Shown: in pieces, positions 6,182 through 31,295 of the stretch
Position numbering within the stretch: the first letter of the stretch is position 1
Layout: every line of letters begins with the position of its first letter
NCBI GenBank assembly: GCA_016744535.1
Contig: JADGEE010000010.1
Span: 1-49,522 of the forward strand
Source of the DNA: Campylobacteraceae bacterium
GTDB lineage: Bacteria; Campylobacterota; Campylobacteria; Campylobacterales; BB28
Length of the DNA stretch: 49,522 nt
Direction of reading: 5' to 3'
The notes under the pieces: model-generated
Told to the model about the DNA's origin: nothing
Seen by the model: only the letters and a program-made list of their open reading frames with translations
The model's database searches: none
Program-made: the position numbers and the translations under genes

Positions 6182-6204
6182 TATCTGATTAAATTTGTCA
6201 GATA
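6182..6204. repeat. 23-bp palindrome, copy 3
   Basis: Arms TATCTGAT and GTCAGATA. It lies between the - strand gene pair and the next + strand genes, 45 bp before a small ATG frame at 6250. Confidence 0.8.
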
Positions 6205-6317: not shown

Positions 6318-6542
6318 ATGCTTCATATTTGTAGATTTATTTTTCTAAATAGTAATTTTAAAAAATATGAAAAGTTTTTAAGTCTTAGGAGTTTAAATGC
6401 ACTTAAAATAGATTCAATTAAAACACCTTATGATTATTTTAAATCATTAAATAATAAAGGTAGGTCAAATACTAGAAACTTTGGATTTAAAAGTCATAGT
6501 GAAATGAAAATATTATTTGCAAAATATGGATTTGTAATTTAA
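6318..6542 (+). CDS. Small basic hypothetical protein, possibly 5'-disrupted (74 aa)
   Basis: A basic protein ending SEMKILFAKYGFVI. The ATG at 6318 has no ribosome binding site, yet the frame is open back to 6276. A better-placed ATG at 6250 opens a ten-codon frame (MNNLKKEFKR) that stops at 6282 in another frame. A one-base change near the TTTAAAA run would join the two, so this may be a frameshifted gene. No family is recognised. Confidence 0.4.
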   Translation: MLHICRFIFLNSNFKKYEKFLSLRSLNALKIDSIKTPYDYFKSLNNKGRSNTRNFGFKSHSEMKILFAKYGFVI

Positions 6543-7181: not shown

Positions 7182-7204
7182 TATCTGATTAATTTAGTCA
7201 GATA
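7182..7204. repeat. 23-bp palindrome, copy 4
   Basis: Arms TATCTGAT and GTCAGATA, 22 bp before the TTG start at 7227, which leads into the large ParB-like gene. This places a putative ParB-type site directly upstream of the parB-like operon. Confidence 0.8.
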
Positions 7205-9926: not shown

Positions 9927-10014
9927 CAATAGCACCCTTTACAATACCAAATAGCACCGTTTACAATACCAAATGACACCCTTTACAATACCAAATAGCA
10001 CCGTTTACAATACC
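9927..10014 (+). repeat. Four 22-bp iterons of the replication origin
   Basis: Four head-to-tail units (9927-9948, 9949-9970, 9971-9992, 9993-10014) match the form AAATAGCACC(C/G)TTTACAATACC. Units alternate CCC and CCG in the middle, and unit 3 has GAC for AGC. They end 16 bp before the rep start. This is the typical layout of iteron plasmids, where the Rep protein binds the iterons to start replication and to repress its own gene. Confidence 0.9.
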
Positions 10015-10030
10015 AATAAAAAGAGGTCTT

Positions 10031-11634: not shown

Positions 11635-11657
11635 TATCTGATTAAATTTATCAGATG
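11635..11657. repeat. 23-bp palindrome, copy 5
   Basis: Arms TATCTGAT and ATCAGATG. It lies 38 bp before the ATG of the frameshifted gene that is coupled to the helicase. Confidence 0.8.
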
Positions 11658-13656: not shown

Positions 13657-14172
13657 TTATTTGTAAATCCAACAGACATTTTTATCTTTAGACATATCAA
13701 TATCTACATGAATAAAAGTTTTAGATATTCCAATTCTTATAAATCCAACATCTAAAAGAGACTTTAAAAGTCTTAAATTTTTATCATTAGTAAATCGAGT
13801 TGAATTACCAAAAGTTTCAATTAATTTTTTCAAAAAATTAAATCTTTCTATTGAATTATTTGGAATATCAAATGATTCAAACATATTTAAAATAAACTCA
13901 TTATTATTTCTAATATCAACAGCTAAACACTCTTTATACTCTAAATTTAGTTTTTGTATTAAATGGCTACTGGTTAAACTCCATCCTCTTTTTTTAGTGT
14001 AGAAAATACACCTACAAGCTGAATTTATTCCAAAAGGAGTATTTGATTGAGTTCTAGCTTTTTGAAGCATTTGCATTAAATTAAAGCTAATTGTATTAAC
14101 TCCACAACAAGGACAAACAAACTCGCTAGGTTTGAAATTTGGAAACTTTTTAAATTGTTCTTTTAAATTCAT
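13657..14172 (-). CDS. M15-type D-Ala-D-Ala peptidase, likely endolysin (171 aa)
   Basis: The sequence fits the Peptidase_M15_3 family: FKPSEFVCPCCG at the front and zinc ligands visible as H70 (TSSH), D86 (CLAVDI) and H155 (FIHVDID). The segment between H70 and D86 is longer than the usual SxHxxGxAxD. Such enzymes cut peptidoglycan cross-bridges and serve phages as endolysins or tail lysins. It has no signal peptide, so export would need a holin; a candidate is at 14834-15184. It is the last gene of the structural module. Confidence 0.85.
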   Translation of the reverse strand: MNLKEQFKKFPNFKPSEFVCPCCGVNTISFNLMQMLQKARTQSNTPFGINSACRCIFYTKKRGWSLTSSHLIQKLNLEYKECLAVDIRNNNEFILNMFESFDIPNNSIERFNFLKKLIETFGNSTRFTNDKNLRLLKSLLDVGFIRIGISKTFIHVDIDMSKDKNVCWIYK

Positions 14173-14183
14173 ATTTTAAACCT

Positions 14184-14816
14184 CTAAAAATATTTAATGA
14201 TATGTTTTATAGTTGCAAGTTTTACATTTTCATAAGATATATCCCCATTAAAACCAGTAGCATAACTTACATCTGAAATATTAGGTAAATTAAAAGTATT
14301 AACTCCATCACCACCAAAACTATTACCAATTACATTGAATAATTTTGGATAAAGCTTAACTGATAACTCTCTACCATCACATTCAAACCAACCAAAAGGG
14401 ATAGATGAACCTACAAACTCTTGAATTGAACCTACTGGAACATTCATAACACTCTCCAAATCAAAAATTTTATAACTATCTACATCAAATTTAATTAAGT
14501 AACCAAAACTTTTATCAAAAACAAAATCACCTTTAGCTATCAAAAGTAATTCAAAATTTATATCATCAATAACAAGGCTATCTTTAATAAGATTAGCTAA
14601 ATCAAATAAATCATCAAATCTAGTATTATTATTATAAAGTTCAATACTTAAAGTACCTTCGTAATAATCAACAACTATTTCAGCATCAGAAAAAGAAGTA
14701 AATTTATGATTAACAAAAGTTGATGGAGTTAAAGCAAGTTGATTATTAATATTTTTTAAAATATTTTGAGGCAAATTAATTTGATTGACATTTTTTGATT
14801 TTAGATAAAATTCCAT
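14184..14816 (-). CDS. Phage tail-collar protein with shared N-terminal module (210 aa)
   Basis: Residues ~125-185 match the tail-collar (Collar/MdpB-type) domain: PVGSIQEFVGSSIPFGWFEC, then GRELS, YPKLFNVIG and FNLPNI. Residues 1-~120 (SKNVNQINLP start) are the same module as in the proteins at 15957-16676 and 16697-17095. The natural reading is an N-terminal anchor fused to a receptor-binding or fibre-tip domain. It lies 11 bp before the peptidase gene. This is the clearest phage-virion signature in the window. Confidence 0.85.
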   Translation of the reverse strand: MEFYLKSKNVNQINLPQNILKNINNQLALTPSTFVNHKFTSFSDAEIVVDYYEGTLSIELYNNNTRFDDLFDLANLIKDSLVIDDINFELLLIAKGDFVFDKSFGYLIKFDVDSYKIFDLESVMNVPVGSIQEFVGSSIPFGWFECDGRELSVKLYPKLFNVIGNSFGGDGVNTFNLPNISDVSYATGFNGDISYENVKLATIKHIIKYF

Positions 14817-14833
14817 ACAATTAACCTTTTAAT

Positions 14834-15184
14834 CTATTTAATTTTATCCCAAATTTTATCCAATTTGGATTCAACATTATCTTTAATTTCTTTCTCTAAA
14901 TGGTCAATTTTTCCATTTAATTCAGTTCTAAAAAGAACAAATTCCTCTTTTTGCAAATAATCAACTTCAACATTATGAACTTTTTCTTTAAGTTCTTTTA
15001 GATCTTTTCTTGTTTCAGCTTTTGCTTCTTTAATATAAGTAAAAAGTTTAGATTCTAATTTTTCTTTCTCTTTAGATATAAGTTCATTAACTTTACTCAT
15101 AACTTTATAATTAAAAAAAGTCTGTAATGCTCCAAGAATAAGACCTAAAACAGTTAAAAGACCTGCTAATTCACCCCAATACAT
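14834..15184 (-). CDS. Holin-like membrane coiled-coil protein (116 aa)
   Basis: One membrane segment at residues ~6-26 (LAGLLTVLGLILGALQTFF) is followed by a long charged coiled coil (~35-116). This layout resembles small phage holins of the BhlA type, though sequence identity is not evident. Its position next to the collar and peptidase genes fits a lysis cassette. It could instead be a spanin-like or tail-associated protein. Confidence 0.55.
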   Translation of the reverse strand: MYWGELAGLLTVLGLILGALQTFFNYKVMSKVNELISKEKEKLESKLFTYIKEAKAETRKDLKELKEKVHNVEVDYLQKEEFVLFRTELNGKIDHLEKEIKDNVESKLDKIWDKIK

Positions 15185-15208
15185 AAAAAACCTTTATCTA
15201 AATTTATT

Positions 15209-15871
15209 TTAACCTTCACCAACATCAGCTTCAAAAGAGATACTAAAAGTTTTTTGTCCTGTTCTCTCTATTATTATATCTCCTCCAGTACCATCAGAAG
15301 AAAATTTAAATAATCCTGATGTATCTGAAAAAGTACAAATAGGTAAATTATTTTTACTTGCAGAACCATCTTCTAAAGTTCTAATATTAAATGATACAGA
15401 ATCATCATAGGAATTATAATAAGCAACTAATTCAACACTTGTATAAGTGATTCCATTAAAAACCAAATGAGTATGATTTAAAGATGGAAGAGTTAAATTA
15501 TTTATAGTATCAATAATATTTTCATCATTAGTAGTAATTTCATAATCTCCATCTAATGTGCTAAAATCAATCTCTCTAAGTAAATTTGTAAGATAATAAC
15601 TTTCATAGTTCATAGGAAAATAATTTGATATTAATCCACCACTTACACCACCAACTCCAACATTAGGCATTTCAAATCCATTTTTAACATTAATTAAAAA
15701 ACTATCTCCAGCTTGAAGTTGATTTAAGTTGAAGTTATAAGTTAATTTAGAATTATAAAGTTTCATAGCACCATTTTCAAACTTATAAACTTTATCTATG
15801 TTAGTTTTAAAATCATCTAAATTAATTAATGCTTGTGACGTGACAATAGAATAACCACTTGTTAATAACAT
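15209..15871 (-). CDS. Putative virion/fibre protein (220 aa)
   Basis: A strand-rich protein that starts MLLTSGYSIVTSQALINLDDF and contains a Gly/Val-rich turn (VGVGGVSGG). It is Asn/Thr/Ser-rich and has no cysteine cluster or signal peptide. It lies between the attachment-module protein at 15957 and the holin-like gene, and palindrome copy 6 is 39 bp before its start. A structural role is inferred from position and composition; no family is recognised. Confidence 0.55.
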   Translation of the reverse strand: MLLTSGYSIVTSQALINLDDFKTNIDKVYKFENGAMKLYNSKLTYNFNLNQLQAGDSFLINVKNGFEMPNVGVGGVSGGLISNYFPMNYESYYLTNLLREIDFSTLDGDYEITTNDENIIDTINNLTLPSLNHTHLVFNGITYTSVELVAYYNSYDDSVSFNIRTLEDGSASKNNLPICTFSDTSGLFKFSSDGTGGDIIIERTGQKTFSISFEADVGEG

Positions 15872-15910
15872 AAAAAATCCTTAAAATTAAATATTCTTAT
15901 CTAATAAATC

Positions 15911-15933
15911 TATCTGAATAAATTTATCAGATA
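15911..15933. repeat. 23-bp palindrome, copy 6
   Basis: Arms TATCTGAA and ATCAGATA. It lies on the leader of the - strand gene starting at 15871 and directly beside a second hairpin at 15931-15960. Confidence 0.8.
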
Positions 15934-15960
15934 AGAGTAAAAGGAGAAAATTACTCTTAT
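15931..15960 (-). terminator. Perfect 10-bp stem-loop at a gene end
   Basis: ATAAGAGTAA (15931-15940) pairs with TTACTCTTAT (15951-15960) over a 10-base loop. It includes the stop codon of the gene at 15957-16676 and shares 3 bases with palindrome copy 6. No T-run follows, so it may shape or stabilise mRNA rather than end it. Confidence 0.4.
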
Positions 15961-16676
15961 TCAGATGTTAAATCAGCAATATCTACACTTGCACCATCTG
16001 TATCTGATAAAGTTCCACTAAAAATACCATTAGATATTCTAACTCTAAAATCTTTACCAACATAAGATGGAGTATAATTTATTTGTCCTATTCCTGTTGC
16101 ACCATCAACTATATTAATACTCATAACAGTATTTACAGCTTCACTAGCACCTAAAGTATCAATTTCAAGGTAACCAGTACCAGTACCCATTGCAAAAGAT
16201 ACATTATCAATAGCAGTATCAGCAGTTTTAAGAAGTGTATCTCCAATAAATGAAGAACCACCACCTAAAACAGCACCACTTTCAACCCATTTGCTATCGA
16301 GTTTCACTACTTCATAAGCATCAACACCATTAGTTCTAATAAGATAAGCAAAGTTTCTATCATCAACAGCATCACCAACTACATAAAAGATAATTTCAGC
16401 AGTAGAATCACCAGCGTGGTTCATATTAGTTACCATTAAATCAGAAAAATCTTTTAAATCATCATATTGAGAATTATCATTAGGTATATCAATTTCAATA
16501 GTAGATAAATCTTCATCTATCGAAACAACAGCATTTTTTAATGTGTTCCACTTTAAAGCATCAGAACTTGAAACTTCGCTAGGACTAATTGCAAGTGAAT
16601 CATTTACAATTGCTAAACCAGCAGGTTGAAAGTTAGCATTATTAACATTTTTAGAAAAAAGTCTTAATTCAGCCAT
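15957..16676 (-). CDS. Attachment-module protein with extra C-terminal domain (239 aa)
   Basis: Residues 1-~125 (LRLFSKNVNNANFQ to VDAYEVVKL) align with the modules at 14184-14816 and 16697-17095: SKNVN near the start, IVN..L.I.PSE, a D.STIEIDI.NDN strand, a YDDL..F...M helix and a final F.YLI strand. A different ~110-residue domain follows, Gly/Ser/Thr-rich with TGTGYLEIDTLG, fibre-like. It is the middle copy of three. A virion role is inferred. Confidence 0.65.
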   Translation of the reverse strand: MAELRLFSKNVNNANFQPAGLAIVNDSLAISPSEVSSSDALKWNTLKNAVVSIDEDLSTIEIDIPNDNSQYDDLKDFSDLMVTNMNHAGDSTAEIIFYVVGDAVDDRNFAYLIRTNGVDAYEVVKLDSKWVESGAVLGGGSSFIGDTLLKTADTAIDNVSFAMGTGTGYLEIDTLGASEAVNTVMSINIVDGATGIGQINYTPSYVGKDFRVRISNGIFSGTLSDTDGASVDIADLTSE

Positions 16677-16696
16677 TTTATCCCTTTAATTTATAA

Positions 16697-17095
16697 TTAT
16701 GCTAACGCAACACCTTCAGTTTTAACGAATGTAATTGGAAATGCTTTATAAGCATCAGTATCCCATTTGATTAAAAAACCTCTTGGTTTTTCAGTCATTA
16801 AATCACCATTAGCGACAAACAAAATTTCAGCAGTTTTGTCAGTAGCACCATCTAAATTATCTCTGAAAAGTTTTGTTACATCTTCTAAATCTGAATAACT
16901 TCCATTATCATTATCAAGATTAACATCTATAGTAGATGTATCTTCATCGTGAGTAGCTTCTGCATTTGCAAATGTATCCCAAGGAGAAGAAGCAAATTCA
17001 GCAGGGTCAATTTGTAACTCTTCATTTACAATAGTTTGTTTAGCAAGTGGAAAATTAGTAAGATTAACATTTTTAGAAACAACTTTTAGTTCCAT
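16697..17095 (-). CDS. Free-standing attachment-module protein (132 aa)
   Basis: This protein consists only of the ~120-residue module found at the N-termini of its two downstream neighbours (SKNVNLTNFPLAKQTIVN, then STIDVNLDNDNGSYSDLEDV and GFLIKWDTDAYKAF). The ATG at 17095 is 6 bases from AAGGA and is preferred over the TTG at 17101. It heads a sub-operon with its own phased-repeat promoter (17153-17218), so high expression and a tube- or shaft-like role are plausible but unproven. Confidence 0.65.
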   Translation of the reverse strand: MELKVVSKNVNLTNFPLAKQTIVNEELQIDPAEFASSPWDTFANAEATHDEDTSTIDVNLDNDNGSYSDLEDVTKLFRDNLDGATDKTAEILFVANGDLMTEKPRGFLIKWDTDAYKAFPITFVKTEGVALA

Positions 17096-17152
17096 AAACA
17101 ATCCTTAATTAAATTATTAACCTTATTTGGTTAATATTTTGTAACAAATTAA

Positions 17153-17218
17153 ATTATACAAAATATTAAAAATATAATATATATTTACAAATAAATACAT
17201 AAAAATACTTTTTAATAC
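17153..17218 (-). promoter_or_regulatory. Putative late promoter with 10-bp phased repeats (copy 1)
   Basis: On the - strand a TATAAT (17153-17158) is preceded, after 22 bases, by TGTAAATAT (17181-17189). Hexamers GTAAAT, GTATTT, GTATTT and GTATTA begin exactly 10 bp apart (+ strand 17183, 17193, 17203, 17213). There is no normal -35 box. The same arrangement and spacing recur at 19231-19286. Phasing on one DNA face suggests an activator bound as a row of subunits. It would drive the gene at 17095 and those after it. Confidence 0.6.
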
Positions 17219-17235
17219 AGAAAAAAGGTTTAAAA

Positions 17236-17406
17236 ATGGAAGAAAATAATAAAGAACAATTTTGTAGCAGAATAGAAAATAAGTTTATAAAAGAAATAAG
17301 AGAAACAAATAAAATAACTGGATTACCAATTCAAAAAATAGTAAATATGATTTTTGAAAAATATTTAAAAGAAGAATGTGAAAATATTGTAAAAAAATAT
17401 AAATAA
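17236..17406 (+). CDS. Small putative ribbon-helix-helix protein (56 aa)
   Basis: Starts MEENNKEQFCSRIENKFIKE; a short strand is followed by two helices with a TGLPIQKIV turn, as in Arc/CopG-type repressors. The ATG has AAAAGG upstream. It is a lone + strand gene inside the - strand structural module and reads away from the late promoter. Palindrome copy 7 lies 3 bp after its stop. A regulator role fits but is not proven. Confidence 0.55.
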   Translation: MEENNKEQFCSRIENKFIKEIRETNKITGLPIQKIVNMIFEKYLKEECENIVKKYK

Positions 17407-17409
17407 AAA

Positions 17410-17432
17410 CATCTGATTAAATTTATCAGATA
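17410..17432. repeat. 23-bp palindrome, copy 7
   Basis: Arms CATCTGAT and ATCAGATA. It lies between two convergent genes and contains the stop codon of the - strand gene (17426-17428). It is the only copy not directly before a gene start. Confidence 0.8.
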
Positions 17433-18127
17433 TAAAAATATTTAACTAAAGCTTTTACTTTTTTATTATAACTTTTAGATAGAGTAAGAGTTAAATTTGA
17501 AATAGTAATATCACTATTAATATTTAAATGATGTAAATCTTCAAGTTTTCTATTTGGATAAATGTCATCTTTATAAACTTCAAAAGAGAATATTTTACCA
17601 ATTGGAGCATTAGATAAATCAAGTGTATTACCAATTAAATCTAAAAACTCTATTTCAGGTTTTAGAGTAGGAGTATCAATATTATCTACATAATTAAATC
17701 CACTCATTTCATATATAAAATAATCGTTATTATTTAAAAAATAATATGCAACTCCATTAATTACTAAAAAATTAAAAATAGTATCATTTAAACTATAAGC
17801 AGTAAAATAAAAATCATTTAACTTTTTTCTATTAAGAGTTCCGTTAAATTCAAAATACAAGTAACTATTATCATGATAAAAAGAAAATTCATCATTAGTA
17901 ATTTTAACATCAAATAGAGAGAAATTATAAATAACATAAAGATTATTATCACGATATAAGAAAACATAATCAACTCCATTTTTAGAATATATATTAGTAA
18001 TTCCATTGTTATTATTAAAAGACTCATCAACTCCGTTTATTTTAACTACTATCTCAAATATACTTTCACTCACAAACTCAAAACTAATTCCATTGATAGA
18101 TTTAGAAGTATCTAACTTTATTACCAT
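17426..18127 (-). CDS. Beta-rich putative fibre protein (233 aa)
   Basis: Many short strands rich in Tyr, Phe and Asn (YVFLYRDNNLYVIYNFSLF, SYLYFEFNGTLN). The second half has a Gly/Pro turn region (NAPIGKIFSFEVY). The TGA stop is inside palindrome copy 7. It is flanked by + strand genes on both sides, so it may be its own unit. Composition resembles the 25-29 kb proteins; no family is recognised. Confidence 0.55.
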   Translation of the reverse strand: MVIKLDTSKSINGISFEFVSESIFEIVVKINGVDESFNNNNGITNIYSKNGVDYVFLYRDNNLYVIYNFSLFDVKITNDEFSFYHDNSYLYFEFNGTLNRKKLNDFYFTAYSLNDTIFNFLVINGVAYYFLNNNDYFIYEMSGFNYVDNIDTPTLKPEIEFLDLIGNTLDLSNAPIGKIFSFEVYKDDIYPNRKLEDLHHLNINSDITISNLTLTLSKSYNKKVKALVKYFYI

Positions 18128-18176
18128 TATAATCCCTATATAAATAAATTAAAAATATTATATCAAAAGGAAATTT

Positions 18177-18419
18177 ATGAATAGATTGCAGTTTGAAAAA
18201 ATAATAAATGAAGGGTTTGAATATTACAAAGATATGGATAAAATAATTTGTATGCAATGCAGTAAAGAATTAAAATATTATAAATTAAATGAAAAAGTTG
18301 AAATGTTAAAATGTGAGAATAATCATAAATATAGTTTTACAGAGTGGTTGAAATATTGGAGTAAAACGATAGATGATACAGCAGACTTTTTAAACGAAAA
18401 AGAGAAGAACCAGTATTAA
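18177..18419 (+). CDS. Small zinc-ribbon-like protein (80 aa)
   Basis: CMQC (residues ~26-29) and a later C..NH (KCENNHKY, ~47-54) form a likely zinc site; the tail is helical (TEWLKYWSKTIDDTADFL). The ATG has AAAAGGAAA upstream. It is the second + strand gene inside the - strand module and overlaps the end of the convergent gene by 4 bases. A regulatory role is possible. Confidence 0.55.
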   Translation: MNRLQFEKIINEGFEYYKDMDKIICMQCSKELKYYKLNEKVEMLKCENNHKYSFTEWLKYWSKTIDDTADFLNEKEKNQY

Positions 18420-18763
18420 ACTGGGAAAGGTGAATTTTTAACAGCAACACCTCTTAAAATTTTATGAGAACCAAAAGCAGTAACACTTTCACCAAGAGTA
18501 TCAAGTTCAGCATCATTACTTTTACCTATAAAATTAACATATATTGATTGGTCTTTACTATTCTTTAAAATATAAGTTGTATGTCTACAATTAACTTTAG
18601 GAGTAATTGTATCAACACTTTTTTTAGTTTCAGCAACTCTGACACCAACACCATTCCAAATTTTACCAGAAACCATAGCCTCAACAGTAGATTTATCACC
18701 TGCTAAAGAATTAGTTATACTTTTACCATCTTTGAAAATTAATTTAACAATAACTTTACCCAT
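18416..18763 (-). CDS. Putative virion protein (115 aa)
   Basis: Starts MGKVIVKLIFKDGKSITN and ends RGVAVKNSPFPV. Strand-rich, with one cysteine and a Gly/Asp linker near NFIGKSNDAELDTLG. It follows the 18773 gene by 9 bp, behind the second phased-repeat promoter. Its strong promoter context suggests an abundant product such as a coat or tube protein. No family is recognised. Confidence 0.55.
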   Translation of the reverse strand: MGKVIVKLIFKDGKSITNSLAGDKSTVEAMVSGKIWNGVGVRVAETKKSVDTITPKVNCRHTTYILKNSKDQSIYVNFIGKSNDAELDTLGESVTAFGSHKILRGVAVKNSPFPV

Positions 18764-18772
18764 TTTAAACTC

Positions 18773-19195
18773 CTATTTCTTTTTTCTATGATTGCTATAC
18801 TTGTTATTAATATATTTAGCAGGTCTAATATCATCAGAAGAATCAGAATAACCACAATGAAACTTAGCAGAACCAACTTTAGTTCTAATATCATCAGTCG
18901 TTTTAGTTGGGTCTATATATTTAAGAGAAACTAAACAAGCATTATAAGCACCATCAACTCTCTCACCAACACCAAAACTAACAATACTAGGTTTTTCAGG
19001 GTAAGGTTGAGTAGCATTAGTACCACTAAGTTCTGAAACTTCCTTAATAGTGTAAGGACTAGCTAAATGTTTTTCAATCTCTTTAACAACAGGATCAGTA
19101 GATTTAACACCTTCAAGAAGCTGATAATTAGAAACACCATTTACTTTTTGGATTATAGCAGTTCCTTTGAGAACCCATTTTCCTGTAACAGCCAT
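18773..19195 (-). CDS. Putative virion protein headed by a late promoter (140 aa)
   Basis: Starts MAVTGKWVLKGTAIIQKVNG and ends in a basic tail (NNKYSNHRKKK). It contains NATQPYPEKPSIVSFGVGER, and the middle looks strand-rich. TAAAGGAAA precedes the ATG. The phased-repeat promoter is directly upstream, and the 18416 gene follows by 9 bp. The segment PNATHPY in the 119-aa protein at 19618 faintly echoes NATQPYP here. A structural role is inferred from context only. Confidence 0.55.
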   Translation of the reverse strand: MAVTGKWVLKGTAIIQKVNGVSNYQLLEGVKSTDPVVKEIEKHLASPYTIKEVSELSGTNATQPYPEKPSIVSFGVGERVDGAYNACLVSLKYIDPTKTTDDIRTKVGSAKFHCGYSDSSDDIRPAKYINNKYSNHRKKK

Positions 19196-19230
19196 AAATT
19201 TCCTTTATTATTTTAATAGTCTTAAAAAAA

Positions 19231-19286
19231 ATTATATAAAAATTTTAAAAAATAAAACATATTTACAAAGAAATACATTTAAATAC
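19231..19286 (-). promoter_or_regulatory. Putative late promoter with 10-bp phased repeats (copy 2)
   Basis: TATAAT at 19231-19236 (- strand), a 22-base spacer, TGTAAATAT at 19259-19267, and hexamers GTAAAT, GTATTT, GTATTT starting exactly 10 bp apart (+ strand 19261, 19271, 19281). Spacing from the -10 box equals that of copy 1 at 17153-17218. It lies between the stop at 19290 and the start at 19195. Confidence 0.6.
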
Positions 19287-19289
19287 ATT

Positions 19290-19637
19290 CTATAAATCAA
19301 ATATATGTGTTATCTTTTCACCATTTACAGATATATATCTCTTAATTAATTTATATAATCTCTTTTTAGAGACTTTAACATTATGAAATATAAATTGAAC
19401 AGAGTATTTTTTAGTAGAAACAATTAGAGTTACAAGAGGTATGGATTTATTATTTTCAACACTTTTTTTATAATCTCTATGTAATATTTTAGTGCAGTTT
19501 ATTACTTCATTTTTAGTAAACTTTTTATATAAATCTTCAACAACTTTCTCGTTTTTTGCTTCAACTTCAACAGTGTTGTTTCTACGACCTATTTTAAGAC
19601 TAGCTTGAACAAACATTTTATACTCCCTTAGGGTCAA
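19290..19637 (-). CDS. Basic hypothetical protein (115 aa)
   Basis: Strand-rich and basic (TVEVEAKNEKVVEDLYKKF, PLVTLIVSTKKYSVQFIFHN, KKRLYKLIKRYI); TAG stop. Its start overlaps the end of the gene before by 20 bases, a sign of coupling. Both this and the upstream 119-aa protein look like small alpha/beta domains of similar size. No family is recognised. Confidence 0.55.
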   Translation of the reverse strand: MTLREYKMFVQASLKIGRRNNTVEVEAKNEKVVEDLYKKFTKNEVINCTKILHRDYKKSVENNKSIPLVTLIVSTKKYSVQFIFHNVKVSKKRLYKLIKRYISVNGEKITHIFDL

Positions 19638-19977
19638 TTGTTAAAGTATTTATAACTCTCTCAATTGGTTTATCATTAACAAGCATATTTTCAAAAAGAT
19701 GATTTGCTATTTCATCTAATTTACCTTGAATAACATTATATAAATGTATAGGTTTACCCTCACCATTTTTGTTTATAACGGTAAATCTAACATAAGGATG
19801 GGTTGCATTAGGGTCATCAATATTTTTACTTGTTTTAAACTTTTTAAATTCAACTATTTTAGTTATTTCAGCACTAGAGATAATATTTAAAAAACTTATA
19901 CAATCTTGAAGATTTTTAGTTTCAACATATTCAATATATGTTTTACTACCTTCTTTAATACTAACTTTAAATCTCAT
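19618..19977 (-). CDS. Hypothetical protein (119 aa)
   Basis: Starts MRFKVSIKEGSKTYIEYVET; alternating strands with a final helix (LDEIANHLFENML). The ATG follows a TAAAGG site and a structured leader (19993-20050). It overlaps the next gene by 20 bases. No family is recognised; a role in virion assembly is inferred from its position. Confidence 0.55.
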   Translation of the reverse strand: MRFKVSIKEGSKTYIEYVETKNLQDCISFLNIISSAEITKIVEFKKFKTSKNIDDPNATHPYVRFTVINKNGEGKPIHLYNVIQGKLDEIANHLFENMLVNDKPIERVINTLTIDPKGV

Positions 19978-19992
19978 TAATAACCTTTAATT

Positions 19993-20050
19993 AAATGCTA
20001 ATAAATGGGCTTAGAGGCTAAAAGCCTCTGCACCCTATCCATTAGCATTT
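19993..20050 (-). promoter_or_regulatory. Structured RNA leader with a two-level hairpin
   Basis: Outer arms AAATGCTAA (19993-20001) and TTAGCATTT (20042-20050) enclose AGAGGC (20013-20018) and GCCTCT (20024-20029) around a TAAAA loop. It is GC-rich for this region. It overlaps the stop of the 20049 gene and ends 16 bases before the ATG at 19977, whose ribosome binding site lies just outside. No T-run follows, so a translation-control or mRNA-processing element is more likely than a terminator. Confidence 0.5.
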
Positions 20051-20492
20051 AAGCTCTATAAAAAAAGAATTTTTTCTTATCATAATCATAAAAAACAGCT
20101 GAATTAGGAGAGTCAGAAACAAGAAAAGGATAAGGAACTTCACCATTAGTATAACCTAAAGTTTTCATTACTGATTCATAGTTACCTATAAATTTAAAAG
20201 AAGAGTGAAAATCATAAGTATAAGTTTTAATAAAAGAGTTGAATAGATAAAGCTTTAAAATAAATTTATTATTAGAAGTAGAAAAAACTAATTTAATGCT
20301 ATCTTCATAATAAAGTGTGTTTTTAGTAAAACTTTTAATTTTTAAAGAATTGGAACTTAATTTTGAATCAGTCTCTATTTTTTGATATAGATAATGATAT
20401 TTAGTAGATGTACCTTTGTTATAAATTTTATCTTTATCAGTTCCTACAAACTCACCATCTTTATTACCAACAAATTCAATAACTTTAGACAT
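20049..20492 (-). CDS. Hypothetical protein (147 aa)
   Basis: Starts MSKVIEFVGNKDGEFVGTDK; strand-rich and Lys/Tyr/Phe-rich, ending YDYDKKKFFFYRA. It is 4 bp after the 190-aa gene. No family is recognised. Position suggests part of the virion-like set. Confidence 0.55.
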   Translation of the reverse strand: MSKVIEFVGNKDGEFVGTDKDKIYNKGTSTKYHYLYQKIETDSKLSSNSLKIKSFTKNTLYYEDSIKLVFSTSNNKFILKLYLFNSFIKTYTYDFHSSFKFIGNYESVMKTLGYTNGEVPYPFLVSDSPNSAVFYDYDKKKFFFYRA

Positions 20493-20496
20493 AATC

Positions 20497-21069
20497 TTAC
20501 TTATTGTGCATATATAAACGATTAATTAAACCACCCAATAAAGAGGCTAACCCTTTATCTATCTTACCATCAACATCTTTTAATAAAAATGCTTCACTAA
20601 ATTTATTAACTTCATCAGCAGTAGTATTGATAAGACCTATCTCTTTAACATCCTTATCAGTTAATTTACCACTTAAAAACTTTATTAACATATAATTATT
20701 ATTGCTATCAGTAGAGTTTTTAGGTTTAAGTAAATCAGTTTTTAGCTTAAGTTTTTCAGCTTTTAAACTTAATATTTCAAGTCGTTGAGATGTTAAGTTA
20801 TTCTCTAAATCTAGCATAGTCTTTTTATATTCAAGCCCAAATTTTTTAATATTAAGTGCATGTTCTTTTTTAGCAACGGTAGATATTTCAAGTTGAGATG
20901 TTGCAATCATAGCTAAGTACTGAGTAATTTTACCCAAAAAACTAAGTTTAGAATTTTCAATATTTATTTTTCTAACTTCAAGTAATTTTTTAGATACTTC
21001 AGTAGCAAGTTTTATCTTATTTTTAATACTCTCTATTCTACCAACACCTTTAGTTAAATCAACTTTCAT
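20497..21069 (-). CDS. Helical/coiled-coil protein (190 aa)
   Basis: Long helices with heptad spacing at ~55-115 (SQRLEILSLKAEKLKLKTDL) and a Gly-rich amphipathic end (GLASLLGGLINRLYMHN). A mid-length hydrophobic stretch (LSFLGKITQYLAMIATSQLE) may touch the membrane. It lies 4 bp behind the Cys-rich gene. A scaffold or tail-rod role is possible; no family is recognised. Confidence 0.55.
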   Translation of the reverse strand: MKVDLTKGVGRIESIKNKIKLATEVSKKLLEVRKINIENSKLSFLGKITQYLAMIATSQLEISTVAKKEHALNIKKFGLEYKKTMLDLENNLTSQRLEILSLKAEKLKLKTDLLKPKNSTDSNNNYMLIKFLSGKLTDKDVKEIGLINTTADEVNKFSEAFLLKDVDGKIDKGLASLLGGLINRLYMHNK

Positions 21070-21073
21070 AATA

Positions 21074-21502
21074 TCAACCTATATGGATAGAAGATGTAAT
21101 AATATCTAAAACACGACCAGCAATGCCACTACTATTATTAATAGTATTTCGTGTAAAAGAGTTATTTTGAAGTAACATATCTTTAAGTCTTTCAGTAATC
21201 ATTCTACAATCAAACATAATATCTAATTCTAAACAATGAATCATACCATCACCTCTAAATTGAAAACCAGTAGGTAAACCATCTTGACCTATTGTGTTAA
21301 ATCTATCTATAAGTCTGTCATAACAAGGGTCTTTTTGTCCTATCATATTATCAGGACAATTGCAATCTTTTTTAACCTCTTTATCTAAATCATTTTTTTT
21401 ACAATCTTCAACAGCTTCAACATAATTGACTATACCTTCAATTTCGTCTTTCTTGTAACCTAAATTAAAAAGTATAGATTCTAATTGAGCATCATTAACC
21501 AT
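21074..21502 (-). CDS. Cysteine-rich hypothetical protein (142 aa)
   Basis: Cysteines cluster in KKDCNCPDNMIGQKDPCYDR, with more at MIHCLELDIMFDC. The front is acidic. Disulphides or a metal site would fit an external virion part. Its ATG lies inside the end of a 27-codon membrane-peptide frame (21495-21578), so it is translationally coupled to it. No family is recognised. Confidence 0.55.
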   Translation of the reverse strand: MVNDAQLESILFNLGYKKDEIEGIVNYVEAVEDCKKNDLDKEVKKDCNCPDNMIGQKDPCYDRLIDRFNTIGQDGLPTGFQFRGDGMIHCLELDIMFDCRMITERLKDMLLQNNSFTRNTINNSSGIAGRVLDIITSSIHIG

Positions 21503-21578
21503 TTTGAACCTTTTGAATTAAATAATCGAGACTAAAAAATAAAAAAGAAACTATTAAAAGATAAAATATAAAATCCAT
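21495..21578 (-). CDS. 27-aa single-span membrane peptide
   Basis: Reads MDFIFYLLIVSFLFFSLDYL then IQKVQNG, one membrane span with a short tail. Its ATG overlaps the stop of the 565-aa gene by one base and its stop overlaps the start region of the 142-aa gene by 8 bases. Such tight nesting in a gap otherwise free of genes supports it. It could be a small membrane or virion peptide. It is too short for most gene finders. Confidence 0.5.
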   Translation of the reverse strand: MDFIFYLLIVSFLFFSLDYLIQKVQNG

Positions 21579-23275
21579 TATTTTTTACTATTTTTAGATT
21601 TAGATAAATTATTTATTGTATTCTCATTATCATCAAAAACAGGGTCTACAATAAGAGTATCAGCTAAATTAAGAGCAGTAACAAGAGCATCATAATCATC
21701 ATCAAAATTATTTTCACTATAAAACTTTTGTAGTCCAGCTTTTTCAAACATAGCTTTTATCTCTATTGGAGAGTAAGAACCTGTAATATTACCCTTAGCA
21801 TCTACACGAGGTTTAAAAGCACTTTTAGTTGTAAGCTTTTTAACTATATCTAAAAATCCATCTTTTAGTTTTGAGCCTAATATCTCTTTTGTAGCCATAA
21901 CTAAAGGATGAGTATTATCAATTTTATTAGCTTCAATGGCTTTAGTAAGACTAGATAAATCAATTTTAACTTCTTTAAGATTTGGAACTTCAATAACTTT
22001 AGTATCTTCTTTTATCTCATATTTAATCATATCTAAATTTTCAGTTTTTCCAAATACACTTATGCCAGTAATTGGAGTTTTTAAATCAACTACATTACCT
22101 TTAACATTTACACCAGTTATAATATTATCTAATGTAATTAAATTTTCCTTAACTTGATAGTGAGGAACTGAAATATTCTCTTTTTCTCTTTTAACTACAA
22201 ATTTAGGAATAGTTATATTGCTTTTTTCCTCTTTAATGGTTAGTTTTGGTATAACTACTTTTTCAGATTTAAAAGAAGTAATAATTTTAGGTATAACTAT
22301 TTTTTCATCTTTTCTAATAACTTTAACTTTAGGAACAGTAATAATTTCTTCTTTATCAATAACTTTAATACTAGTGATAGCTTTAACATCTCCCTCTTTG
22401 CCTATGAATTGATTAGATTTAATACTTTCACTAACTTTAGTAGCTGAATTATCAATAGCTTTAACTACTTTATCAAGTGGAGCTTCAACTTTAATATTAT
22501 GTTCGTGTCTATTAGTAACTTTTTGAGTAGTAACTCTAACATCAGGACAACGACTAGTTATGTTATTGTTTATAGTTGGACTTGATTTTTTAGTAAATAA
22601 ATTATGTAAAGCTTCTATAACACTTTCAGGCTTACGACCTAATGCTCCCATATCATCCTCCTTACATTTATCAGGTTTTTTAGCTTCATAAGGATTTTCA
22701 GGGTCAAAATAAGCATCTTGGCAATCCTTAAGTTTTTTTTCTAACTGTTTTTTTTCTCTTTCTAATTTATCTATATAATCTTGTAAACCACTATCATTTT
22801 TTAAATCATCTAATTTATCTTGAAGTTTATCTCTTTGAGTAATTAAATCATTATAATCTTTAGATTTAATATCAAATTTATCTTCAAGTCTATCTATTTC
22901 ACTTTTTAAATCATTTATTTTATCATCATTAGATTTATTAACCCAATCCATACCCTCTTTTCTGCCATCGCTTCTAGCTTTTTCTAAATCATCAAAAGTA
23001 TAATTAAGTTCATTATCAACTTGCAACTGATTAACTTTATTTTCAAGTAAATCAATTTTATTTTGTAATTTATCTATATCAACTTGTGTGTATATGTTTT
23101 CATCACTACCAAAAAACTCACTAAAAACTTCATTTAAAAAATTACCTATTTCAAAAGCAGTAGCAATACAATCAGCAATATCTAACTTACTTCTTCTACA
23201 TTTAATAATAATTCTACCTAAATATAAAGTAAAACGAACAGCTACAATACCAATAATAGCAGGAATTTGAACCAT
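21578..23275 (-). CDS. Large membrane/coiled-coil protein with 14-residue repeats (565 aa)
   Basis: An N-terminal membrane segment (PAIIGIVAVRFTLYLGRIII) is followed by a long coiled coil (~60-190), then a low-complexity linker. From ~300 to ~370 there are 14-residue units such as ITVPKVKVIRKDEK, IVIPKIITSFKSEK, VVIPKLTIKEEKSN and ITIPKFVVKREKEN, then decaying copies. Strand-turn units of this kind suggest a beta-solenoid or fibre shaft. Near the C-terminus, IEIKAMFEKAGLQKFY resembles the AGYEKAYDRF part of the shared ParB-protein domain. It is the largest structural-module gene and might be a tape-measure or spike analogue; no family is recognised. Confidence 0.65.
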   Translation of the reverse strand: MVQIPAIIGIVAVRFTLYLGRIIIKCRRSKLDIADCIATAFEIGNFLNEVFSEFFGSDENIYTQVDIDKLQNKIDLLENKVNQLQVDNELNYTFDDLEKARSDGRKEGMDWVNKSNDDKINDLKSEIDRLEDKFDIKSKDYNDLITQRDKLQDKLDDLKNDSGLQDYIDKLEREKKQLEKKLKDCQDAYFDPENPYEAKKPDKCKEDDMGALGRKPESVIEALHNLFTKKSSPTINNNITSRCPDVRVTTQKVTNRHEHNIKVEAPLDKVVKAIDNSATKVSESIKSNQFIGKEGDVKAITSIKVIDKEEIITVPKVKVIRKDEKIVIPKIITSFKSEKVVIPKLTIKEEKSNITIPKFVVKREKENISVPHYQVKENLITLDNIITGVNVKGNVVDLKTPITGISVFGKTENLDMIKYEIKEDTKVIEVPNLKEVKIDLSSLTKAIEANKIDNTHPLVMATKEILGSKLKDGFLDIVKKLTTKSAFKPRVDAKGNITGSYSPIEIKAMFEKAGLQKFYSENNFDDDYDALVTALNLADTLIVDPVFDDNENTINNLSKSKNSKK

Positions 23276-23285
23276 ATTAAAAACC

Positions 23286-23308
23286 TATCTGATTAATTTA
23301 TTCAGATG
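23286..23308. repeat. 23-bp palindrome, copy 8
   Basis: Arms TATCTGAT and TTCAGATG. It contains the stop of the 72-aa module gene (23298-23300) and lies 10 bp before the start of the 565-aa gene at 23275. Confidence 0.8.
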
Positions 23309-23516
23309 AATCAGAAACATATAAATCATCTTCTTGAACTATGATTTTTCTACTATCTTTTTCAATTTGATAAGAGACTATACTGTTTTCTGTATTGTCT
23401 AAATAAAAACTACCAAGTATAGTCCAATCAATACCAAACTTTTGACTATTGACAACTTCTCCATCAACCCAAATACTACCGTTACCATTAAGACTATCAA
23501 TAGATATTATTGCCAT
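23298..23516 (-). CDS. Free-standing 'SLNGNG' module protein (72 aa)
   Basis: The whole protein (SIDSLNGNGSIWVDGEVVNS, then YQIEKDSRKIIVQEDDLYV) matches the C-terminal modules of the proteins at 24332-25024 and 27962-28717. The pattern of short strands with a G.V.. / V.Y.V.KG / V.E..L layout looks like a small SH3-type barrel. Its ATG overlaps the previous stop by one base. No named family; probably a binding or capping domain. Confidence 0.6.
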   Translation of the reverse strand: MAIISIDSLNGNGSIWVDGEVVNSQKFGIDWTILGSFYLDNTENSIVSYQIEKDSRKIIVQEDDLYVSDSSE

Positions 23517-24145
23517 TATTCACTCCCAACTTCATAATTTTCTAATTCATCATTAAAAATAAAACTTTTATTAGTTTCATCAGATGTTGTGTAAAGATTA
23601 ATATCAACATCACTTAAATTATTATCTCTAGCGTAAGCTGTGTTTTTTACTTTAGAGTAAACAATTGGATTAGATTTTTGTATCTCTTCGCATTGATTAA
23701 TCCACTCTTGTAACTGTTTAGATAAATTTTCATTAGCTTTTTCAATAAGTTCATATCCATCTACTACAATAAATGTATTGCCTTTATTGTAACCTAAAAC
23801 AGTGACTTTTTCAACACGAGAATAAGTTATGCCCACAAAACCTAAGTTAATTCCTGATTGTAAAATATTACCTTTACTATCAAAAAAAGGACAAGGGTTA
23901 TGTGCTATATACTCTAAAGTTTTTTCTATTATAAATCTTTTAACACCATCAATAATAGAAAAACCAGTTTTAACATTGTTATCTAAATTATTACTATAAG
24001 TAGCTTCCCAATCTGAATCAGGATAATTATTTACAGTAGGAAAAGATAATTTATTTCTACTGGTGCTAGTTCCATCAGATATAGTAAAATTTAAAGGTTT
24101 AAAATTACCTCTATTATCGAGTTTTAAAGTATATAATTTATTCAC
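23516..24145 (-). CDS. Hypothetical structural-module protein (209 aa)
   Basis: Starts MNKLYTLKLDNRGNFKPLNF. The central part has a CPFFDSKGN loop and hydrophobic strands (VTVLGYNKGNTFIVVDGYEL), and ends acidic. The stop overlaps the next start by one base and the gene before by one base, so it is tightly coupled. No family is recognised; it follows the fibre-like genes. Confidence 0.55.
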   Translation of the reverse strand: MNKLYTLKLDNRGNFKPLNFTISDGTSTSRNKLSFPTVNNYPDSDWEATYSNNLDNNVKTGFSIIDGVKRFIIEKTLEYIAHNPCPFFDSKGNILQSGINLGFVGITYSRVEKVTVLGYNKGNTFIVVDGYELIEKANENLSKQLQEWINQCEEIQKSNPIVYSKVKNTAYARDNNLSDVDINLYTTSDETNKSFIFNDELENYEVGSE

Positions 24146-24339
24146 TAATTACTCTTAGGTTTAAAATCACTACTTAAAGATTTAGCAATAAATTCAACTG
24201 CAAAAGCAATTCTATCTAAAGCAATTTGTTGCTTATCGCTAGATTCTTTTGTAGAAGTAGATATATCATTTAATTTAGAAGAAATATCACTTATATCATC
24301 TGACATATTTTTTAAAATATTTTCACAAGTATCAGCCAT
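24145..24339 (-). CDS. Small helical protein (64 aa)
   Basis: A short alpha-helical protein with heptad-like residues (starts MADTCENILKNMSDDISDIS, ends SLSSDFKPKSN). It overlaps the gene before by 8 bases and the gene after by 1 base. It may be a connector or chaperone; no family is recognised. Confidence 0.55.
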   Translation of the reverse strand: MADTCENILKNMSDDISDISSKLNDISTSTKESSDKQQIALDRIAFAVEFIAKSLSSDFKPKSN

Positions 24340-25024
24340 TATTAAACCTTATTAATTCATTTTCAGGAACATATAAAACACTATTTCCTTTTTGAACTTC
24401 ATAAAAAACATTATAGCTACCATATCCTAAAAAAACTCTAAATGAATAATTTATAATATATTTAGTATCATAATCAGATATATTAACTAATTCACCATCT
24501 AAATATAAGCAACCATTACCATTAAGACTTGTTATATGCTCACTTTTATAATCATTAGCATTCAGAGTAAAAACTTTATTTTGAAGTATATTTATAGCTT
24601 GATTTGTGTTTTCTACTAATTGCCTAAAAGAGTTATTAACTGTCGATACATAAAATTTAATATTTATAAAACCATCAAAATTAGATATAGATATAATTAA
24701 ATCTTCATGATGATAAATAGAGTTATGAATATCTATTAAATCATTTAAAGTAAAAGAGTTTTCAGATAAATTTATTTTAAATTTAGTCAAATAAAAATCA
24801 ACTTCACTATCTTTTATAGATATAAAAAATGAATCAAAATTATCTATATCTAAAATAGAAACTTCAAAGTTTTGAGTAAAAGAAAATTTAGCATAATCTT
24901 TTTTTTCATTTAAAATTATCTTTTGTAATGGATAATCTTCATTAGAAAAATGAAATTTTTTACCTTCAACAATAGATAAATAAAATGGTAATTCATCCGA
25001 ACCACGAGTAAGAAAATATTGCAT
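24332..25024 (-). CDS. Protein with C-terminal 'SLNGNG' module (230 aa)
   Basis: The last ~65 residues (SLNGNGCLYLDGELVN, then VFYEVQKGNSVLYVPENELI) match the free-standing 72-aa module and the end of the 251-aa protein. The first ~160 residues are strand-rich, with SLYH-type Phe/Asn-rich runs (SFTQNFEVSILDIDNFDSFF). The N-terminal part and the 251-aa protein also look similar in layout. A fibre or tail-tip role is inferred. Confidence 0.6.
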   Translation of the reverse strand: MQYFLTRGSDELPFYLSIVEGKKFHFSNEDYPLQKIILNEKKDYAKFSFTQNFEVSILDIDNFDSFFISIKDSEVDFYLTKFKINLSENSFTLNDLIDIHNSIYHHEDLIISISNFDGFINIKFYVSTVNNSFRQLVENTNQAINILQNKVFTLNANDYKSEHITSLNGNGCLYLDGELVNISDYDTKYIINYSFRVFLGYGSYNVFYEVQKGNSVLYVPENELIRFNNG

Positions 25025-25033
25025 AAAAAACTC

Positions 25034-25486
25034 CTATTTTAAAAAAGTATCAATAATAAATATAGTATTATTTTTATTATCAATAAATTGATATATAAAA
25101 CCAAACAGACCACCACCTTTATAATATCTCTTTTTTTTACCAGTAAATTTAAAATCTATATCATTTATTTTAAGAGTATAGTTTTTATCAATTTGAGTAA
25201 AGTTTTCATCATAAATATTAATATATTTAAAATAAAGCTTATGGTCAATATCATAACTAGATAGGCAATATTTAAAAGATTGAACAAAATAGTTAAATTT
25301 GTTGATTTTATAGTTAAAATTAAAATTGAAAGAGTTAAATTCAATAGAGATAGAATAGTTAAAATTTAAAGCATTTAAATTTAGAAAGTCTTCAATAGTA
25401 TATTCAAAAGAGTGATTAAAATATGGAGTTGTAATAAAATAGGGACTATATCCATAAAGTTCATAATTAAATTCAAAACTAAACAT
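25034..25486 (-). CDS. Phe/Asn/Tyr strand-repeat protein (150 aa)
   Basis: The first ~75 residues are irregular repeats around F-x-F-N-Y (MFSFEFNYELYGYSPYF, NFNYSISIEF, FNFNFNYKINKFNYF). The end (DIDFKFTGKKKRYYKGGG, then FIYQFIDNKNNTIFIID) may be another small SH3-like module. The start MFSFEFNYELYGYSP parallels MLNLQFNYTLSGYSLNG in the 485-aa protein. A beta-fibre structure is inferred; no family is recognised. Confidence 0.6.
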   Translation of the reverse strand: MFSFEFNYELYGYSPYFITTPYFNHSFEYTIEDFLNLNALNFNYSISIEFNSFNFNFNYKINKFNYFVQSFKYCLSSYDIDHKLYFKYINIYDENFTQIDKNYTLKINDIDFKFTGKKKRYYKGGGLFGFIYQFIDNKNNTIFIIDTFLK

Positions 25487-25900
25487 TTATAACTCCAAAC
25501 AATATTGAGTTCTAAGATTATTACATTGAGATACTAAATCATCTAAAGAGTAAGTTGAAGCGTAAGCTTTATCAGAAAAAGATAAACAGACATATTTATC
25601 ACTAATTTCAACATCATAACTAAAATTTGTTAATATATTTCCTAAAGCAAAAAGAGAATTAAATATTTCAATATCAAAATAAATAAAGAAACTTTTAGGG
25701 CAAGAAAAGTCTAATATATTTATAGATATGGTTTTATTTATATAATCAAATTTAAACTCTAAATAATCAAAAGTTTTATCATTAAAACAAGATGTTTTAA
25801 GTACATAATTTAAATTCTTATTTATACTAAATTTTTGACTATTATTATCACCAATACCAAAATGCCAAAAAAGTTCATCTCTATTTACATAAAAATTCAT
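25487..25900 (-). CDS. Hypothetical structural-module protein (137 aa)
   Basis: Starts MNFYVNRDELFWHFGIGDNN; rich in Phe, Tyr, Asn and Lys with strand periodicity, and ends with a short helix (LDDLVSQCNNLRTQYCLEL). It overlaps the gene before by 4 bases and ends 1 base before the start of the next. It resembles the N-terminal half of the 230- and 251-aa proteins in composition. No family is recognised. Confidence 0.55.
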   Translation of the reverse strand: MNFYVNRDELFWHFGIGDNNSQKFSINKNLNYVLKTSCFNDKTFDYLEFKFDYINKTISINILDFSCPKSFFIYFDIEIFNSLFALGNILTNFSYDVEISDKYVCLSFSDKAYASTYSLDDLVSQCNNLRTQYCLEL

Positions 25901-27354
25901 TTATTAATGACTCTTTCAATAGCAAATAGATATCTGTTATTGCCTCTATGTAGCTGATAAACTAAGTAATATTTAGATTTAGCAAATAGGATAAAAAGTA
26001 TATTTACAACAGTAAATTTAATTGGAAAACCGATAACTTTAACACTATCACCAATATTAAATTTTGGAACAATTCCGTGATATGGATTTTTATTATAAAG
26101 AGAGATTTTAGATAAACGATTGATTGTAACTTTTTTAAGAAGAGATTTTAAATAATCTAATTTAGTTTCAACTATTAAATAACTTTTATCATCACTCATA
26201 GTATAAAACTTATTAGCACCAATAAAAAGATTACCATTATTAAAAAAATACTTAACATAAATATCATCAAATTTATAAAATTGATTTTCAAATTCAGATA
26301 GAGAAATGCCATTAATAAATATATTTTCAAAAGAGATATTAGCATTTAAATAGAATTTATTTATAAAAAATTTAATTGCAGATTTAAAATGTTTGAGTTC
26401 TATATATAATTTATTTTCTCTAATAGAAATAGAGAAGCTATCAATAATAAGACCAAGTTCATTTATAGTTTTTTTAGTATATTTAGAATCAATAAAAAAG
26501 TTATTTAATTTAAGAGATGAGCCAAAAAAAGATATTTCATAATCATAATAAAATTTATCATTTATAGAGAGTACATAACTAAAAAAACAATCAAATTCAA
26601 GAGGTGCAGTTCTAATTAATTCATAAGTAAAGCTATTATTAAAGTTATAATAAAAATCTTTAGAATAATTAAATTTAAAATTGAAATCAACAAAAGTATA
26701 TAAGTAATCATAATTAAATTGAAAGTTAAAATTAAAAATATTATTTGAAATATCATAATTAAATTCTTTATTGAAACAGATAGATTTTTCTATTTTATAA
26801 TCAAATTGAAAATTAAAACTATTAATAAAAATTGGATAGTTACAATAAGCTTTAAATTTAGAGTAAGGATTACCTTCACGAGCAGAAACAACAAAATAAG
26901 GAAATTCAAAAGAATTAATATTATTAAATTCAATATCATCATATATAGAAATTAAATTCCTATAAGTTGTGCAATTATTAGGATATGGCACATAAGGAAA
27001 AGCTGATTTGACTTCATAAGCAGGTATAGAGACATCGGTTCTAAAAAATTCAAGTGGTTCACAAATAGAATTTAAATAAGTAAAAAAAATACGATTAACT
27101 GTATTGAAAACTATTTTAATATCAGTAAATCCAATAGTTGGTTTAAACAATAAACCACTTCCACCAACCCAAGCGTATTTACCATTACCTCGTTTTACAT
27201 CTAAAACTACATATCCATCACTATCTATATAACTACTACCATTTGCATTTCTAGTTACAATATCTGATTCTTTGAGTTGATACCAACCATTAAGAGAGTA
27301 ACCGCTTAGTGTGTAGTTGAATTGTAAGTTAAGCATTGAAAATAACAATTTCAT
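25897..27354 (-). CDS. Large Phe/Asn/Tyr strand-repeat protein (485 aa)
   Basis: From ~residue 180 to 290 irregular 13-17 residue repeats of the FNFxFNY type follow one another (FNFQFDYKIEKSI, FNKEFNYDISNN, FNFNFQFNYDYLYT, FVDFNFKFNYS). The end (FNIGDSVKVIGFPIKF, YYLVYQLHRGNNRYLFAIE) looks like a small beta-barrel. Two starts are possible: ATG at 27354, or ATG at 27336, which gives MLNLQFNYTLSGYS and parallels the 150-aa protein; neither has a clear ribosome binding site, and both overlap the gene before. Fibre or adhesin role inferred. Confidence 0.6.
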   Translation of the reverse strand: MKLLFSMLNLQFNYTLSGYSLNGWYQLKESDIVTRNANGSSYIDSDGYVVLDVKRGNGKYAWVGGSGLLFKPTIGFTDIKIVFNTVNRIFFTYLNSICEPLEFFRTDVSIPAYEVKSAFPYVPYPNNCTTYRNLISIYDDIEFNNINSFEFPYFVVSAREGNPYSKFKAYCNYPIFINSFNFQFDYKIEKSICFNKEFNYDISNNIFNFNFQFNYDYLYTFVDFNFKFNYSKDFYYNFNNSFTYELIRTAPLEFDCFFSYVLSINDKFYYDYEISFFGSSLKLNNFFIDSKYTKKTINELGLIIDSFSISIRENKLYIELKHFKSAIKFFINKFYLNANISFENIFINGISLSEFENQFYKFDDIYVKYFFNNGNLFIGANKFYTMSDDKSYLIVETKLDYLKSLLKKVTINRLSKISLYNKNPYHGIVPKFNIGDSVKVIGFPIKFTVVNILFILFAKSKYYLVYQLHRGNNRYLFAIERVINK

Positions 27355-27952: not shown

Positions 27953-27961
27953 AAGAAAACC

Positions 27962-29612: not shown

Positions 29613-29613
29613 C

Positions 29614-30396: not shown

Positions 30397-30423
30397 TAAT
30401 TACTCCTAAATATATTTATATTA

Positions 30424-31146: not shown

Positions 31147-31169
31147 TATCTGATTAAATTAGTCAGATA
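31147..31169. repeat. 23-bp palindrome, copy 10
   Basis: Arms TATCTGAT and GTCAGATA. It lies 15 bp before the first gene of the structural operon (31131, - strand), between it and the divergent second parB-like gene. A run of eight T follows on the + strand. Confidence 0.8.
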
Positions 31170-31214
31170 GTTTTTTTTATTTAAAAACTTAATAAATTTA
31201 TATGATTTTAAATC

Positions 31215-31270: not shown

Positions 31271-31295
31271 TAAATAAATATTAAAAAGGAATTAA

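Follow-up and report, generated by a model that had tools for sequence, protein, structure and literature searches.

Two gene heads on the minus strand of a prophage-like element in a Campylobacter-group bacterium carry the same array of hexamers, repeated every 10 bp and placed at the same distance from a TATAAT box. This array is genuine, far from random and restricted to the element. Tentatively, and as a possible rather than a probable explanation, we read it as a tandem operator for an element-encoded regulator, which would activate the two late operons A and B via polymerase recruitment. The likeliest candidate for this regulator is a divergent Arc-like ORF of 56 aa.

The element and its two late promoters

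The stretch of DNA that was analysed, here called the window, is one whole contig of 49,522 nucleotides, with host genes from about 32.3 kb on. Its left part encodes ParB, a replication initiator and a helicase; many other genes there have no known relatives. At its left end, the window shares 18 nt with the end of contig C123, into which the element seems to continue. C123 adds a tyrosine integrase gene and a gene for a rolling-circle-replication-like protein, the latter identified by eye. An 18-bp direct repeat, CTTAACATAAAATTAACA, was found at positions 7929-7946 of C123 and at 32289-32306 of the window; it may mark the ends of the element or its attachment site. Because of the continuation into C123, the integrase and the possible end repeats, the element is regarded as integrated, phage- or phage-plasmid-like and about 35 kb long.

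Several further features of the window were observed. Tandem iteron-like repeats of 22 bp at 9928-10015 directly precede the replication initiator gene at 10031; they suggest a plasmid-type origin in the integrated element. The palindrome ATCTGA-N9-TCAGAT occurs in 11 copies and nowhere else in the genome. Ten of them are located in the window part of the element (312-334, 1779-1801, 6182-6204, 7182-7204, 11636-11656, 15911-15933, 17411-17431, 23287-23307, 27968-27990 and 31147-31169) and one on C123 (10481-10501). The copies are mostly intergenic; since several have no terminator T-run, they are perhaps dispersed repressor (stoperator-like) or partition sites. Between the divergent genes at 31131 (minus strand) and 31296 (plus strand), the region 31170-31300 contains several ATATGATATT/AATATCAT repeats, which may serve the first late promoter as an operator of another kind. 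A gene of the PD-(D/E)XK transposase family (45985-46914, plus strand) is inserted among the host genes of respiratory complex I (nuo).

The late cluster covers 13657-31131 on the minus strand. Among its proteins that were scanned, no capsid, portal or terminase was recognised in PHROGs or Pfam. With its tail-collar protein and endolysin, this long cluster possibly represents an undescribed virion type.

Direct reading of the minus strand identified TGTAAATAT-N22-TATAAT twice in the window, at 17153-17189 and 19231-19267. The pattern GTATTT-N4-GTATTT-N4-GTAAAT is located at 17183-17208 and 19261-19286, in both cases 24 bases from TATAAT. Promoter A (19231..19286, minus strand) comprises GTATTT at 19281-19286, GTATTT at 19271-19276, GTAAAT at 19261-19266 and TATAAT at 19231-19236. 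Promoter B (17153..17218, minus strand) comprises GTATTT at 17203-17208, GTATTT at 17193-17198, GTAAAT at 17183-17188 and TATAAT at 17153-17158, with GTATTA at 17213-17218 as an additional, imperfect hexamer, the fourth in this array. The -10 box of both promoters lies a short distance 5' of a gene start. The predicted transcription start of promoter A, at about 19224, leaves a leader of 29 bases to the ATG at 19195; that of promoter B, at about 17146, leaves 51 bases to the ATG at 17095.

With the -10 box set as -12 to -7, the hexamers start at approximately -42, -52 and -62, and additionally at -72 in promoter B. Array and -10 box thus share one 10-bp register (-62, -52, -42, then -12). The self-match of both promoters peaked at a shift of 10 bp; a shift of 14 bp was nearly equal, being about level in the first promoter. 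For both promoters no TTGACA-like -35 box could be detected, with at most two of six matches in any hexamer at a spacing of 16-18 bp upstream of TATAAT. An extended -10 box (TGn, TGxTATAAT) is absent from both, which read TTATATAAT and TTGTATAAT. The sequence-only reading had described the common TATAAT, the gap and the phased hexamers at equal distance from the -10 box in both gene heads, and it had reported that a -35 box is missing. On rereading, all of these sequence details were correct.

Operon A starts with a gene for a protein of 140 aa (18773..19195, minus strand), which belongs to no known family and has a distant homologue in the related element described below. It is followed by a gene for a protein of 115 aa (18416..18763, minus strand), likewise of no known family. 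The first gene of operon B (16697..17095, minus strand) encodes a protein of 132 aa, which shares 42% identity with the N-terminal half of the protein encoded next, a fibre-like paralogue of 239 aa (15957..16676, minus strand). After these two fibre-like paralogues, operon B continues with a 220-aa protein, a protein with hydrophobic N-terminus, a tail-collar-domain protein of 210 aa (14184..14816, minus strand) and an endolysin/peptidase of 171 aa (13657..14172, minus strand; PHROG 894, E 3e-12). It was therefore reasonable to call the genes behind promoter B late genes, as the sequence-only reading had done. A similar N-terminal domain (SKNVN...) is found in three operon B proteins encoded within 14184-17095 on the minus strand; for the two paralogues the 42% identity was obtained by BLAST, and the resemblance of the collar protein to both was seen by eye. 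This common domain is perhaps the virion-attachment head of alternative fibres.

Rarity and conservation of the array

The chance expectation for the triple array, calculated for the element with a third-order Markov model, is about 2x10^-5 per element. In the whole genome of 3.02 Mb the exact array was found in two copies, and control patterns were not found at all. The search for array plus -10 box with up to three mismatches yielded genome-wide the same two copies only, and one control match. A two-strand host sample of 517 kb contained 817 GTATTT/GTAAAT hexamers, none of them paired at 10-bp spacing. The element holds four such pairs, all within the two arrays. A chance origin of the array was rejected on the basis of the Markov expectation, the whole-genome counts with controls and the pair count in the host sample. 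These results also support the proposal that the array is specific to this element. The lack of hexamer pairs at 10-bp spacing in the 517 kb of host sequence makes it unlikely that the array belongs to a host regulator whose regulon includes such sites on the chromosome. Of the intergenic TATAAT sites of the host, 59 were compared; the one nearest to the array differs from it by 6/18 mismatches, and GTA at -42 is present in none. Exact array matches were also obtained in 15 viral contigs; they are not accompanied by TATAAT at the distance seen here and appear to be chance matches.

The likeness of the two promoter regions is confined to a block of 69 nt, which is 80% identical. In promoters A and B, all 24 motif bases are identical, compared with 22 of the 32 remaining bases (Fisher p = 0.003). 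Between the first proteins of operons A and B no significant similarity was detected. Because the genes downstream of the two promoters are unrelated, we take the 69-nt block to be a control sequence common to both, whose retention or copying did not depend on the genes.

Only one related element was found, on contig C106 of G001, another genome of the same genus (MAG record DZAZ01000010.1). Its late proteins are approximately 23-35% identical to those studied here, with a stretch of 46% in the collar protein. Further relatives of the late proteins could not be detected in viral contigs, genome contigs, phages or plasmids. The array is absent upstream of the corresponding gene of the related element, and neither the 56-aa nor a 74-aa protein discussed below was found on its contig. 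For the sequence-only reading, according to which related elements should keep the array, this result is mildly unfavourable. At such a distance between the late proteins the absence says little; it gives no support either.

Host background and alternative explanations

The sequence-only reading had concluded from the missing -35 box and from the helical phasing that an activator is involved. Neither point implies an activator by itself, as a missing -35 box and an AT periodicity of roughly 10 bp are usual in sigma-70 promoters of Campylobacterota (PMC3656092; PMC3847290). In C. jejuni, a periodic AT-rich signal replaces the -35 box of these promoters (PMC3656092; PMC3847290), with peaks at -7, -17, -27 and -38 (PMC3847290). 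In this lineage the missing -35 box is not meaningful by itself. The two promoters resemble other Campylobacterota sigma-70 promoters in the TATAAT box, the missing -35 box and the upstream periodicity of about 10 bp (Petersen 2003; PMC3656092; PMC3847290). In contrast to them, they carry a specific hexamer with a phased G in three to four repeats. This fixed G per repeat, the reach to -62/-72 and the occurrence at no more than two promoters exceed the norm of the lineage. In E. coli, promoters without -35 box and without TGn tend toward activator dependence (PMC2613000). As neither promoter has the extended -10 box reported as C. jejuni consensus, a dependence on upstream contacts becomes more likely (compare PMC2613000). 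The array is located where activators or alpha-CTDs bind. In general, a row of activator subunits is a plausible reading of it, but it is one of several mechanisms that fit, and two of its arguments, the missing -35 box and the helical period, mostly reflect what is usual in the host. The same anatomy would also suit an extended UP element or the operator of a repressor.

Both sites might be ordinary sigma-70 promoters with a periodic AT signal, whose likeness results from a copied promoter segment and which require no dedicated regulator. The AT periodicity and the missing -35 box documented for C. jejuni (PMC3656092; PMC3847290), the register of the array with the -10 box together with the top self-match at a 10-bp shift, and the 80% identity of the 69-nt block, which is compatible with a duplication, agree with this explanation. 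We consider it quite unlikely, however, with regard to the phased G and the extension to -62/-72, which are absent from the 59 host TATAAT sites and from the host sample, and to the motif bases, which are more conserved than the rest of the block. An extended UP element is rather unlikely too. In this case host alpha-CTDs, possibly joined or replaced by an element-encoded homologue, would occupy one hexamer per turn and lead to high late expression without a separate activator. UP subsites extend from -45 to -37 and from -58 to -45 (PMC2613000), and alpha-CTD contacts about 6 bp across a minor groove (PMC2859248). The first two hexamers coincide with these subsites, and AT-rich sites one turn apart at -38 to -60 are found here as in UP elements. 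The array shares with UP elements (PMC2613000) the positions relative to the start, the AT-richness and the helical phasing; it differs in the conserved G of each hexamer, in three to four sites instead of two and in the alpha-CTD homologue encoded by the element. In comparison with the A-tract consensus, GTATTT/GTAAAT is AT-rich, yet has a fixed G in each hexamer, and a G so strongly conserved is unexpected for minor-groove recognition of A-tracts. The homologue, candidate regulator 2, is a putative stand-alone C-terminal domain of the RNA polymerase alpha subunit with 74 aa (6318..6542, plus strand). Its match to Pfam PF03118 (E 2e-4, 21.4 bits) is below the gathering cut-off of 23.8; the best NCBIfam family is rpoA (E 3e-4), and RpoA chains are among the best PDB sequence matches. 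Genome-wide, PF03118 matched rpoA and this ORF only. In an alignment with host RpoA the motifs RSxNxL and NxGxKSxxE are kept, of which we take RxxN and GxKSxxE to be the DNA-contact motifs of alpha-CTD. These host-like motifs argue for a UP-type contact. Against it stand the Pfam score, an AF2 model with a pLDDT of 64, which is too poor to use, the distance of about 11 kb between the ORF and the promoters, to which it has no link, and the related element, whose contig has neither array nor 74-aa protein. The order-wide search for this ORF gave its own copy only, apart from weak matches in unrelated reading frames or over stops; two matches in viral contigs were unrelated as well. It is very unlikely that a row of free element-encoded alpha-CTDs on phased 6-bp sites replaces a conventional activator and recruits polymerase to late promoters without -35 box. 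What is new here is this particular array and its combination with an alpha-CTD homologue, a putative but testable link. In the literature on phage-encoded alpha-CTD and on RHH late activators no matching paper was found.

Small phage proteins of the RHH and HTH type are usually repressors. An element protein could thus coat the array in the lysogen and keep operons A and B silent until induction. The start region of the 56-aa ORF within the array is a typical layout for autorepression. Nevertheless, repression is unlikely, as the array stays clear of -35/-10 and of the start site, lying at -37 and further upstream, outside the core promoter, and promoters without other recruitment elements are a better fit to activation. 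Head-to-tail repeats of 10-11 bp are bound by regulators of the OmpR/PhoB type, and a host protein of this type might bind the tandem repeats and couple late expression to a host signal. This is highly improbable: at three mismatches the host genome yielded no further site, and the host sample contained no pairs at 10-bp spacing. Late activators of phages, such as Mu C/Mor and P2 Ogr, coordinate late promoters that have a -10 box but no -35 box, and they bind dyad sites. The -10 box without -35 box at late promoters is common to these systems and the element, for which coordination by a phage protein is only proposed; instead of dyads, the array is head-to-tail. No homologues of these activators were detected in family searches of the proteins tested. 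Standard scans for -35/-10 boxes and terminators gave no more sites than shuffled sequence.

A candidate regulator encoded by the element

Candidate regulator 1 is the 56-aa Arc-like ORF (17236..17406, plus strand), which is divergent from promoter B. The array stands between the start codons of this ORF and of the first operon B gene, and the start region of the ORF falls within the array. The two best PHROG matches, 582 and 3180, are annotated as 'Arc-like repressor'; they are weak (E 0.012 and 0.015) and nearly full length. No RHH family was found for this ORF in Pfam. The AlphaFold (AF2) model, calculated from the single sequence, is a confident two-helix hairpin without N-terminal strand, and a PDB fold search with it gave no useful match. 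With no RHH family assigned by Pfam and no strand in the hairpin, the RHH fold is a tentative assignment.

Dimers of RHH proteins occupy several operator sites along the DNA in a cooperative manner; AvtR, an RHH protein of viral origin, acts as repressor of its own gene and as activator of a neighbouring one (PMC5569661). Because of these properties of RHH proteins and because of its position, the 56-aa ORF is the first suspect. As in the tandem operators of Arc, CopG and AvtR (PMC5569661), repeated sites lie beside a divergent gene for a small regulator and could form cooperative arrays along the DNA. In contrast, GTATTT and the exact head-to-tail spacing of 10 bp match no operator that was checked, and the RHH identity of the local ORF is putative. 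Candidate 3, an 80-aa ORF with the pattern C-X2-C-X17-C-X3-H (18177..18419, plus strand), is a possible zinc-ribbon regulator. It is the only other plus-strand ORF of such size in a gap of the minus-strand late cluster.

For the activation of the late genes, which we tentatively prefer, the following mechanism is proposed. Both sites would be sigma-70 promoters of two late operons in the integrated phage-like element, each with TATAAT and, in place of the -35 box, operator sites arranged head to tail at about -42, -52 and -62 (-72 in promoter B). The array would be read by an element-encoded regulator, whose units would sit beside RNA polymerase on the same face of the DNA, one for each helical turn. 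The bound regulator would most likely recruit polymerase to these -10-only promoters, and operons A and B would be switched on together. With the 56-aa Arc-like protein as the likeliest regulator, the overlap of the array with its own start region would allow autoregulation. Operator arrays upstream of -42 can serve repression as well, which counts against this mechanism, as does the absence of the array and of the 56-aa ORF from the distant related element.

The late genes of the element, for fibres and lysis, are probably controlled by one of its own small proteins. How phages and phage-plasmids of free-living Campylobacterota control their late genes is, to our knowledge, poorly understood. 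The 35-kb element offers a control sequence, the two operons that it targets and candidate proteins side by side, which makes a direct test of the circuit possible. Involvement of the alpha-CTD homologue would mean that a mobile element captures the RNA polymerase of its host by a new route.
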